Shown: piece by piece, positions 5,215 to 61,800 of the stretch
Position numbering within the stretch: position 1 is the stretch's first letter
How the letters are laid out: every line of letters begins with the position of its first letter
Program-made: the position numbers and the translations under genes
Assembly: GCA_023512255.1 (NCBI GenBank)
Contig: JAILZY010000012.1
Location: 1-61,862, forward strand
Direction: 5' to 3'
Source of the DNA: a bacterium
GTDB lineage: Bacteria; SZUA-182; DTGQ01
Length of the DNA: 61,862 nt
Notes under the pieces: generated by a model
Told to the model about the DNA's origin: nothing
The model's database searches: none
What the model saw: only the letters and a program-made list of their open reading frames with translations

Positions 5215-5916
5215 TTATACGTGATTATCCTTCGATGTCAAGGAAAGAATGCTAGAGAGAGATTTTAGTAGGCAGGAAACCGGCAAACCGACAACATTGG
5301 TATAACATCCTTCCACCCCGATGACAAAGTCCGCTCCCCTGCCCTGGATGCCGTAGGCTCCGGCTTTGTCCATCGGCTCCTGGCTGGCGATATAGCTTTC
5401 GATCTCATCCTCGCTCAGGGTACGGAAAGAAACCCATGATTCCACAGATTCAATAATCCGCTGGCCGCTCGCGGTATTGATAACAGCAAGACCACTGATC
5501 ACCCTGTGCTTGCACCCGCTCAGCCGCTTTAGCATTTTTCTGGCCTCCTGCTCATCCCTTGGCTTGCCCAGAATTTGCCCTTCAAGGACAACGATGGTAT
5601 CGGCTCCTATAACAACGCCGGCTGATAATAGCTGCTGGCTGCCGCTACCCGATGCTCGGATAGCGCCGGATAAGCGGCTGGCTACAGCCTCAGCTTTGAG
5701 CATGGCCCATGCTCTGGCTTTTTCTTCCGGGCTCCCAGGCACATCCTCCTCTTTGGCCTGGCTGGGAATAGTAGTAAATTTCAACCCCAAAAGGCGTAAG
5801 ATCTGTGCCCGCCGAGGGGAGGCAGAAGCCAGGATAAGTGGAAAATCATGACCGAGCTTTTGGTTAATTCGCTCAATCAAACCCTGGTCGTAAGGGGGTA
5901 GTTTAATGATGGTCAT
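5215..5916 (-). CDS. maf: Maf family nucleotide pyrophosphatase
   Basis: The 233-residue protein belongs to the Maf/YhdE house-cleaning family, which hydrolyses non-canonical or dTTP/UTP nucleoside triphosphates. The signatures are SASPRR at residues 31-36, GADTIVVLEGQILGKP with the catalytic aspartate, and AYGIQGRGADFV near the C terminus. It is slightly longer than most Maf proteins because of an insert around SGAIRASGSGSQQL. It is transcribed away from the TPR gene; the intergenic region 5917-6168 is AT-rich and probably holds divergent promoters. The substrate (dTTP/UTP or m7GTP subtype) cannot be decided here. Confidence 0.93.
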   Translation of the reverse strand: MTIIKLPPYDQGLIERINQKLGHDFPLILASASPRRAQILRLLGLKFTTIPSQAKEEDVPGSPEEKARAWAMLKAEAVASRLSGAIRASGSGSQQLLSAGVVIGADTIVVLEGQILGKPRDEQEARKMLKRLSGCKHRVISGLAVINTASGQRIIESVESWVSFRTLSEDEIESYIASQEPMDKAGAYGIQGRGADFVIGVEGCYTNVVGLPVSCLLKSLSSILSLTSKDNHV

Positions 5917-6168
5917 GAGAGCTCAATTTTTCTGCTGTTTTTAACACTATCTTCTTTTTCACAATCTGAACCCGATGAGCGGCTTAGCCGATAAAAATTA
6001 AGAGAGCTGTAAGGGTTGAAAATTAAATTTTTATTGACAATCGTAATTAACTAAATTATTATTTAATATAATCAGGGCTTAATATAATATCAAAAAATAC
6101 CAGACAAATTTATTAGAAATTTATTATTATCTTAACCCCTAACTTACTTATTTTGTAGGAATATAGCC

Positions 6169-7056
6169 ATGATAACCAAAAAGTTTATCGCCTCTGCTTT
6201 TTTTCTGCTCCTGATAACTCTTCCCTCCCCTGGTCTAACCACTGACCAGCTCAGTCATCATGATTCGGCCAGTCAGTATTTTAAGACTGGAATTTCTCTC
6301 TTTGATCAAGGAAATTACGAGCAGGCCCTCTCTGCCTTTCAGAAAGCTACAGAGGAGAATCCAAACTATGCCGAAGCCTACTATAATCTGGCCATTATCT
6401 ATGATCTCCAAGGCAGGTTCTCTGAGGCCATCGAGGCGTATCGGAAAGTTGTCCAGATCGACCCCCAGGTCGGCACTGTGCTCAAAAACCTGGCTCAGGA
6501 CTGCTACCTGACTGGAAGACTTAAGGAAGCTATGGACTACATCAAACTGGCCGAATCCCTGGGCAAGCCCGCTGACAAGGATCTCTACAATAAGATCTGG
6601 GCCGAGTATAAAGGGCTTGCGGCTCGCCCCAAGACGGCTAGAAATAGCAAAACCAGAGGGAGGATGATTGATGAAGGCCGCAAGCTTCCTCCTCCTTCAG
6701 AGGCGCAAGATACCAAAGAACTTGAGAAAATCAATCGACAGATAGAGTCTGCCATTGCCAGCCTGGAGGCAGAGCTAGCCGCACAGCAGCAGCAGAAGGA
6801 GAAAGCAGCCAAGCTAATTGATCTTAGCATCAAATACCGCCAGAGGGGAGAAATTGATAAGTCGATTGATGTTCTGACCAAGGCTCTTTCGCTCAGCGCC
6901 AGCAAGATGCTGATCTATGCCGAGCTTGGGTTGTGTTACTATTTCAAGGATCGAAAAGATCTCTTTGTACAAAATTTCACTCAGGCAAAGAAAAGCGGCT
7001 TTAGGCCATCTAAGTCTCTTAATGATCTATACCTGCAATGCCTGGCCAAGAGGTGA
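6169..7056 (+). CDS. Secreted TPR protein
   Basis: This 295-residue protein opens with a signal peptide (hydrophobic AFFLLLITLPSPGLT). At least two canonical tetratricopeptide repeats follow at about residues 36-105 (SISLFDQGNYEQAL-type helices, then YAEAYYNLAIIYDLQGRF). A charged coiled-coil rich in Glu and Gln spans about 184-225 (ELEKINRQIES...AAQQQQKEK), and a second TPR-like region closes the protein. It is probably periplasmic or membrane-associated and acts in protein-protein contacts. It is monocistronic, with maf divergent and the M23 peptidase convergent. The specific role is unknown. Confidence 0.85.
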   Translation: MITKKFIASAFFLLLITLPSPGLTTDQLSHHDSASQYFKTGISLFDQGNYEQALSAFQKATEENPNYAEAYYNLAIIYDLQGRFSEAIEAYRKVVQIDPQVGTVLKNLAQDCYLTGRLKEAMDYIKLAESLGKPADKDLYNKIWAEYKGLAARPKTARNSKTRGRMIDEGRKLPPPSEAQDTKELEKINRQIESAIASLEAELAAQQQQKEKAAKLIDLSIKYRQRGEIDKSIDVLTKALSLSASKMLIYAELGLCYYFKDRKDLFVQNFTQAKKSGFRPSKSLNDLYLQCLAKR

Positions 7057-7189
7057 TTTTCCCTTGATTTAATTACTAACTATGCTCTGGCACTTTTTTA
7101 TGCTTTTGCACTTTTTCTCTGAACTTTTGATTTTATTAGATTTTCTATTATGAGGTAACTTTCAAGAAAGTTAAGATATTAAGAAAATT

Positions 7190-7310
7190 CGCTCTTATTT
7201 ATTATCTACCATTGAGAGACATAATCCTAATAAGAGCTAAGCCCCTTCGAGGGTTTATGGTTGTTCTGATATAGGGTTTATGGTGTCTGATATATAAGTA
7301 TATAAGAGCG
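7190..7310 (+). mobile_element. MITE family 1, copy 1 (TSD AGAAAATT)
   Basis: This 121-bp non-coding element begins CGCTCTTAT and ends ATAAGAGCG, a perfect 9-bp terminal inverted repeat. It is flanked by the 8-bp direct repeat AGAAAATT (7182-7189 and 7311-7318). Inside are two partly tandem AGGGTTTATGGT units and an internal ATAAGAGC copy of the end sequence. Close relatives lie at 18746-18850 and 61531-61640. Confidence 0.93.
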
Positions 7311-7348
7311 AGAAAATTTATACAAAGGTATAGTTATTTAGAGTGTAG

Positions 7349-17743: not shown

Positions 17744-18649
17744 TCACTGCATGATGATCCGCTCCGCTCCTGCATAAATATTCATCTTGCCAGAGCGCAA
17801 AAATCCGATCAGGGTCATGCCTAATCTCCTGCTGAGACCTACTGCCAATGAGCTGGGAGCAGAGACCGAAACAACAATAGGAATGCGGCCACGAGCTGCT
17901 TTTCGGATCAGGGTATAATTGGTCCGCCCGCTCAAGAACAAAATTTTATCCTCAAGCTCAACTCCGGCAAGTAGAGCCTGCCCGATAGCTTTATCCAAGG
18001 CATTATGCCTAGCCAGATCCTCAGAACAGAAAAGGAAATCGCCCTGCCGATCAAAAATACAGGCCGCATGGGCTGCTCCGGTAAGAGCAAAAAGAGCCTG
18101 CCTATGCCTAGCCTGACTCTCAATGCCTTGCAAAGCCGACAAGGGAATTCGTACCCCAGAGTCGATCATACCCAAAGGGGAAGAAATCCGCCTGATGATC
18201 TCAGCCTCATCCCCTGACGGCTCTATCGGTGAGCACTCGGCAGAATCAACCCAGGAGGAAGGAGATTGAAACCCGCTGGCCACAGCACCAGATATGGAAA
18301 TTGGCTCAAACCAAAGGCCGATTGTATTCCTCTGCGGATCAAATTCCTCCCACCGAAGCCCTCCATCCCTCCATGAAGAGGGCAAAAGCCCTTCGGTAAA
18401 GCAAAAGCCAAGGGCCAACTCCTTCTCCTGCCCAGGAGTGCGCATCAGGGTTGCATAGGCCGCACCGTTCACCCTAATCAGCAGGGGAGCTTCCCGAATG
18501 ACTTCATCCCAGGCTAAGCTTCCCTCCCCATTCCCTATCCTGGTAACTTCAAAAGATGTATGATCACTCATAGATATACGATCACTCATATTACTACACT
18601 TTTGCAGAACTCTCCCCATGCCTTGAACTTCTTGAAAATTATCTTTCAT
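17744..18649 (-). CDS. fdhD: FdhD-like formate dehydrogenase sulfurtransferase, lacking CxxC
   Basis: The 301-residue protein has the FdhD core: MRTPGQEKELALGFCFTEGLL, the nucleotide-like segment FALTGAAHAAC, EDLARHNALDKAIG, FLSGRTNYTLI and the terminal GFLRSGKMNIYAG. In E. coli FdhD a CxxC pair passes sulfur to the molybdenum cofactor of formate dehydrogenase. In this protein that position (before IPLSALQGIES) has no cysteine pair, so direct persulfide transfer by this route looks impossible. It is followed by selD. The start is uncertain; internal ATGs at about residues 11, 21 and 27 are possible. Confidence 0.85.
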   Translation of the reverse strand: MKDNFQEVQGMGRVLQKCSNMSDRISMSDHTSFEVTRIGNGEGSLAWDEVIREAPLLIRVNGAAYATLMRTPGQEKELALGFCFTEGLLPSSWRDGGLRWEEFDPQRNTIGLWFEPISISGAVASGFQSPSSWVDSAECSPIEPSGDEAEIIRRISSPLGMIDSGVRIPLSALQGIESQARHRQALFALTGAAHAACIFDRQGDFLFCSEDLARHNALDKAIGQALLAGVELEDKILFLSGRTNYTLIRKAARGRIPIVVSVSAPSSLAVGLSRRLGMTLIGFLRSGKMNIYAGAERIIMQ

Positions 18650-18745
18650 ACCAAACCCACTAAAATCAAGGGTTCAGAGAAAAAGTGCAAAAGTATAGTC
18701 ATATTATATAATCACTCAAATCATTGAGACCCCTTCAACAGGAAT

Positions 18746-18850
18746 CGCTCTTATATATCAGACACCATAAACCCTATATCAGAACAACCATAAACCCTCG
18801 AAGGGGCTATTAGGGTTATGTCTCTCAATGGTAGCTAATAAATAAGAGCA
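18746..18850 (-). mobile_element. MITE family 1, copy 2 (TSD ACAGGAAT)
   Basis: This is a 105-bp copy in reverse orientation, with ends CGCTCTTAT and ATAAGAGCA. It is flanked by the exact 8-bp direct repeat ACAGGAAT (18738-18745 and 18851-18858). It lacks the internal AAGAGCTA present in the other two copies. Confidence 0.93.
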
Positions 18851-18882
18851 ACAGGAATATAATCTCTCATCTGTCTTTTCGT

Positions 18883-61402: not shown

Positions 61403-61530
61403 GTTTAAGATTTCTATTTTCTTCTTAAGACTAGATCATTGAATACAGTAAACATAAAATTATATTTTACCACTCCTCAATTGTCAACCCTGCTGTGAGT
61501 CTAACAGATGTTCCTCAGGTAAAAAACAAT

Positions 61531-61640
61531 CGCTCTTATTTATTAGCTACCATCTGAGAGACATAACCCTAATAAGAGCTAAGCCCCTTTGAGGGTTTAT
61601 GGTTGTTCTGATATAGGGTTTATGGTGTCTGATAAGAGCA
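61531..61640 (+). mobile_element. MITE family 1, copy 3 (TSD AAAACAAT)
   Basis: This 110-bp copy has ends CGCTCTTAT and ATAAGAGCA and exact flanking 8-bp repeats AAAACAAT (61523-61530 and 61641-61648). It is in the same orientation as copy 1, upstream of ribF. Confidence 0.94.
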
Positions 61641-61762
61641 AAAACAATAGTTGAAAGTGGGAAATACAAGCGAAAAAGCCTCTCTTTCTTCATGAAAAGT
61701 GGTAAATGAGAAACTCCCCTCTTATTGTAATCCGGTCAAAATCGTACTAGGATTGGATATAA

Positions 61763-61800
61763 ATGGGGAACATCTGACATCTGAACCAGATGTTCCCCAT
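61763..61800. terminator. Strong 14-bp hairpin near window end
   Basis: ATGGGGAACATCTG (61763-61776) pairs perfectly with CAGATGTTCCCCAT (61787-61800), loop of 10 bases. It may terminate a transcript from beyond the window. No gene is visible in 61403-61862. Confidence 0.6.

Follow-up and report, generated by a model that had tools for sequence, protein, structure and literature searches.

A high-copy MITE family with 8-bp target duplications in a sparsely sampled bacterial lineage

Among the prokaryotic MITEs that have been reviewed are the Correia, Chunjie, QMITE2 and ERIC elements, and for bacterial MITEs generally, variable size, intergenic targets rich in A and T, nested insertions and copy numbers in the hundreds have been described (PMC10969869). 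The repeat family analyzed here is represented by three short elements in a 61,862-nt stretch of bacterial DNA (hereafter, the window). We consider it, with a probability of about 95%, to be a family of non-coding MITEs with imperfect 23-bp terminal inverted repeats. This assignment is supported by the combination of approximately 100 dispersed copies, diverse exact 8-bp target duplications, empty sites within the same genome, placement between genes, and the absence of coding capacity.

Each of the three elements in the window is flanked by an exact 8-bp direct repeat that differs from one element to the next, and the coordinates given in the initial annotation proved correct to the base. The features are as follows:

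7182-7189 (no strand): left 8-bp target duplication AGAAAATT of copy 1
7190-7310 (+ strand; family orientation +): MITE copy 1, 121 bp
7311-7318 (no strand): right 8-bp target duplication AGAAAATT of copy 1
18738-18745 (no strand): 8-bp target duplication ACAGGAAT of copy 2
18746-18850 (- strand): MITE copy 2, 105 bp, in the opposite orientation and lacking an internal 8-bp block
18851-18858 (no strand): 8-bp target duplication ACAGGAAT of copy 2
61523-61530 (no strand): 8-bp target duplication AAAACAAT of copy 3
61531-61640 (+ strand): MITE copy 3, 110 bp, inside another dispersed repeat
61641-61648 (no strand): 8-bp target duplication AAAACAAT of copy 3

The ends CGCTCTTAT, which had been recognized as common to all three elements and indeed are, occur 4 times in the window, where chance alone would give 0.5 occurrences; the 23-bp end pattern was likewise found 4 times, with 0.01 expected. 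Copies 2 and 3 each have a mutation in the outermost base of one end (the right-hand base is A rather than G) but retain intact 8-bp duplications; copy 1 carries a small duplication close to its right end. The internal AGGGTTTATGGT doublet reported previously is real, the number of units varying across the family from one (in a 90-bp form) upward. Copy 2 was also correctly described as missing an internal 8-bp block, and the same deletion form is found at a different site (locus L158, 105 bp), which implies that the deletion form itself has been copied. An internal copy of the element's own terminal ATAAGAGC is located at window positions 7230-7237 and is lost from copy 2. That the elements have no coding capacity is borne out by the presence of stops in all six frames of the consensus.

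The core motif of the element produced 95 matches in the 3.83-Mb, 172-contig draft genome (a reversed-pattern control produced 0), and the terminal-repeat pattern produced 205 matches in the same genome (≤3 mismatches); taken together, these counts indicate a family of ~100 copies. The part of this genome that was retrieved yielded 78 copies in which both ends could be extracted; the duplication counts are based on 76 copies. The modal length of the element is 113 bp, and the imperfect 23-bp terminal inverted repeats of the family are CGCTCTTATTTATTAGCTACCAT / CGCTCTTATATATCAGACACCAT. The 90-bp form lacks one AGGGTTTATGGT unit along with a spacer (23 bp), and the longer forms contain additional AGGGTTTATGGT units; the mean identity to the consensus is 96.6% for the copies of 105-123 bp. 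Also present are a divergent subfamily in which CGCTCTTAT ends enclose another interior (L080 1951-2053 and L081 2555-2709), and a MITE copy that is interrupted by another small element bounded by inverted GTGTCTGTCCGAAA ends (L113 2920-3250).

The genome search for the ends accompanied by 8-bp duplications, proposed in the initial annotation, detected exact duplications at the predicted ends in 42 of the 76 copies with both ends, and duplications with one mismatch in 12 more. The exact duplications comprise 39 different 8-mers, and the flanks are unrelated; pairing the left flank of one copy with the right flank of another gave 12 matches in 5700 (0.2%), which is the chance level. A ninth base is repeated in just 3 of the 42 copies, so the length of the duplication is 8. 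The targets are rich in A and T: of the 39 different exact 8-mers, 31 begin with A and 33 end with T. The data as a whole show that the family inserted many times, with 8-bp duplication of A/T-rich targets, and subsequently decayed neutrally. The earlier claim that the differing duplications of the window copies signify independent insertion holds as far as the diversity of the duplications is concerned, but has to be qualified for copy 3, the AAAACAAT duplication of which is shared by several copies; such shared duplications are not each proof of a separate event. The AAAACAAT site is occupied in one orientation by window copy 3 and the copies at L069 and L133, and in the other orientation by those at L035 and L037, which makes it a recurrent target that was hit more than once.

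Several copies of the MITE reside within other dispersed repeats, and uninterrupted relatives of these repeats carry the 8-mer once, so that empty sites are directly demonstrated. Such sites were identified for AATCAAAA (L176 vs L179, 97.5% identity over 81 bp), AATCCAGT (L050 vs L203, 98.8% identity), AAAACAAT (window copy 3 vs L170), and AGGTTTAT (the 8-mer being single in the uninterrupted repeat relatives). In the only congener available for comparison (G001), the locus of copy 3 lacks both the MITE and the repeat that hosts it, and homology there ends at window position 61494, ~36 bp short of the MITE; at the locus of copy 2, the intergenic region is too divergent for comparison. Only 2 of the 76 copies overlap an ORF by >20 bp, such ORFs accounting for ~77% of that DNA according to a crude ORF caller; this near-exclusive intergenic placement is compatible with, and fits, the removal of harmful insertions.

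The surroundings of the window copies contain further repeats. The host repeat of copy 3 spans window positions 61505-61776, with the ends CAGATGTTCC..GGAACATCTG, and its 10-mer end occurs 81 times in 890 kb vs 1.7 expected. Two of the MITE copies lie beside a dispersed repeat of ~80 bp (..AAATCCAGTAAAATCAAGGGTTCGGAGAAAAAGTGCAAAAGCATAG), which is located at 7099-7165 (-) and 18594-18698 (+) and of which the retrieved DNA contains >30 copies.

As in the initial annotation, we infer that the MITE was moved by a transposase encoded elsewhere. A DDE transposase supplied in trans would bind the MITE ends and mobilize the element, which would then be joined to target DNA cleaved with an 8-bp stagger. 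The likeliest source of such a transposase would be an ISL3-family insertion sequence that was lost, falls outside the binned assembly, or has ends too diverged to be recognized. ISL3 elements have GGCTCTT-like ends and produce 8-bp duplications. The congener carries one full ISL3 copy (L118; PF01610, E=4e-72), with the ends GGCTCAACCAT/GGCTCTACCAT and an exact 8-bp target duplication AGAAAAAT, and an ISL3 element from Nostoc has the ends GGCTCTCCCAG and the target duplication AAAAATTA. Both delimited elements have GGCTC(T/A) ends beside A/T-rich 8-bp duplications, a yardstick that consists of these two elements because, of four ISL3 loci examined from elsewhere, three produced no clear ends. 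The MITE resembles the ISL3 elements in the presence of GCTCT at end positions 2-6, the 8-bp duplication and the A/T-rich target. In contrast to both ISL3 examples, which have G at position 1, the first base of the MITE is C (CGCTCT); furthermore, its ends do not match those of the congener ISL3 element beyond ~6 bases, the inner ends being different, and, unlike ISL3-family insertion sequences, it contains no transposase gene. We put the odds that an ISL3-type transposase mobilized the MITE at slightly better than even.

A full-length IS with the same terminal repeat, which the initial annotation suggested looking for, was not found in the DNA read, which covered part of the contigs of a 172-contig draft in which four small contigs are all N, and the transposases of ISL3 (PF01610) and IS256 (PF00872) are both absent from the genome's own assembly. 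Repeated ISs are often missing from draft assemblies; given such loss and the four all-N contigs, the absence of ISL3 is weak evidence. A 1.6-kb end pair at L147 5015-6636 was rejected as the parent element, with no transposase inside and no duplication; what is presumably, by eye only, an MntA/HepT-like nucleotidyltransferase/HEPN gene pair is located at 5842-6463 within it. Lone ends at L073 14379, L077, L081, L087, L110 and L113 were dismissed as well, because they led to copies that are truncated, variant or interrupted and have no recognizable transposase next to them. A narrow search of the open literature turned up no description of an ISL3-derived MITE.

The strongest competing explanation concerns the ISL3 step alone and posits that the MITE was mobilized by another family that generates 8-bp duplications (IS1595, IS6, IS66, IS1 or an undescribed one). 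We regard it as a serious contender, at somewhat under even odds: the lack of both an ISL3 gene and a parent element, together with the terminal C, speaks for it, whereas GCTCT, correctly spaced from an A/T-rich duplication of 8 bp, fits ISL3, and IS256 is no less absent from the assembly than ISL3.

Far less plausible, in our estimation, is that the repeat is a structured RNA or a regulatory repeat under selection (a terminator or attenuator) that merely happens to be repeated. The + strand of the consensus folds well (z -5.3), copy 1 contains one predicted terminator-like hairpin, and the placement is intergenic, but terminal inverted repeats would in any case be expected to fold back, Rfam contains no match to the element, and the exact target duplications along with the empty sites indicate transposition. 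A maintained structured RNA is rejected by the substitution counts: in a set of 51 copies, paired positions decay no differently from unpaired ones (3.3% and 3.6%, respectively), there are 84 pair-breaking cells vs 2 both-side changes, and the predominant substitutions are G>A and C>T, as in neutral decay. Finally, the possibilities that the element spread solely because larger repeats were duplicated, or that it is an artefact of assembly, can be virtually discounted: several copies do lie inside other dispersed repeats and many contigs terminate within the element, but there are 39 different exact duplications with unrelated flanks, and the AAAACAAT site holds insertions of either orientation.

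Outside its own genome, the full element produced no match at E 0.01 in 59 other genomes, the congener included. In the congener, there are ~10 matches to the ends; they represent a sister type, CGCTCTCAT, carried by elements 133, 178 and 397 bp long. Like the MITE family, these elements are non-coding and have the ends CGCTCTCATTTATTAG..ACCAT, and the 397-bp element additionally has a 7-of-8 flanking repeat; they differ in being limited to ~10 end matches, in having C for T at position 7, and in their unrelated interiors. The end pattern was found in no other genome of the class, a set identical to that of the sparsely sampled phylum (9 genomes), and had no match in the viral, phage and plasmid collections. 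Among 84,980 species genomes, there was a single isolated match to the end pattern, at one site in a Paenibacillus MAG, which is compatible with chance. A more far-reaching reading, to which we give somewhat less than even odds, is that this is a genus-specific ISL3-type MITE family that recurrently uses AAAACAAT in another repeat family, such that nested elements would build composite mobile repeats in this lineage.

The MITE family documented here is a high-copy one, in a lineage with few genomes. Its ends, the length of its duplication, its target preference and the empty sites within the genome are well defined, so that a parent transposase can be searched for by its ends. The present family differs from the known MITEs in its own end, CGCTCTTAT, with no sequence match in the collections searched, and in its host, which comes from a sparsely sampled phylum. 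With Correia, Chunjie, QMITE2 and ERIC, it shares small size, the absence of coding capacity, terminal inverted repeats and target duplications, and it also resembles known prokaryotic MITEs in intergenic placement, A/T-rich targets, size variants, truncated copies, nested insertions and copy numbers of tens to hundreds. The family itself is new, but the kind of element is already known, and this family is an ordinary example of it.
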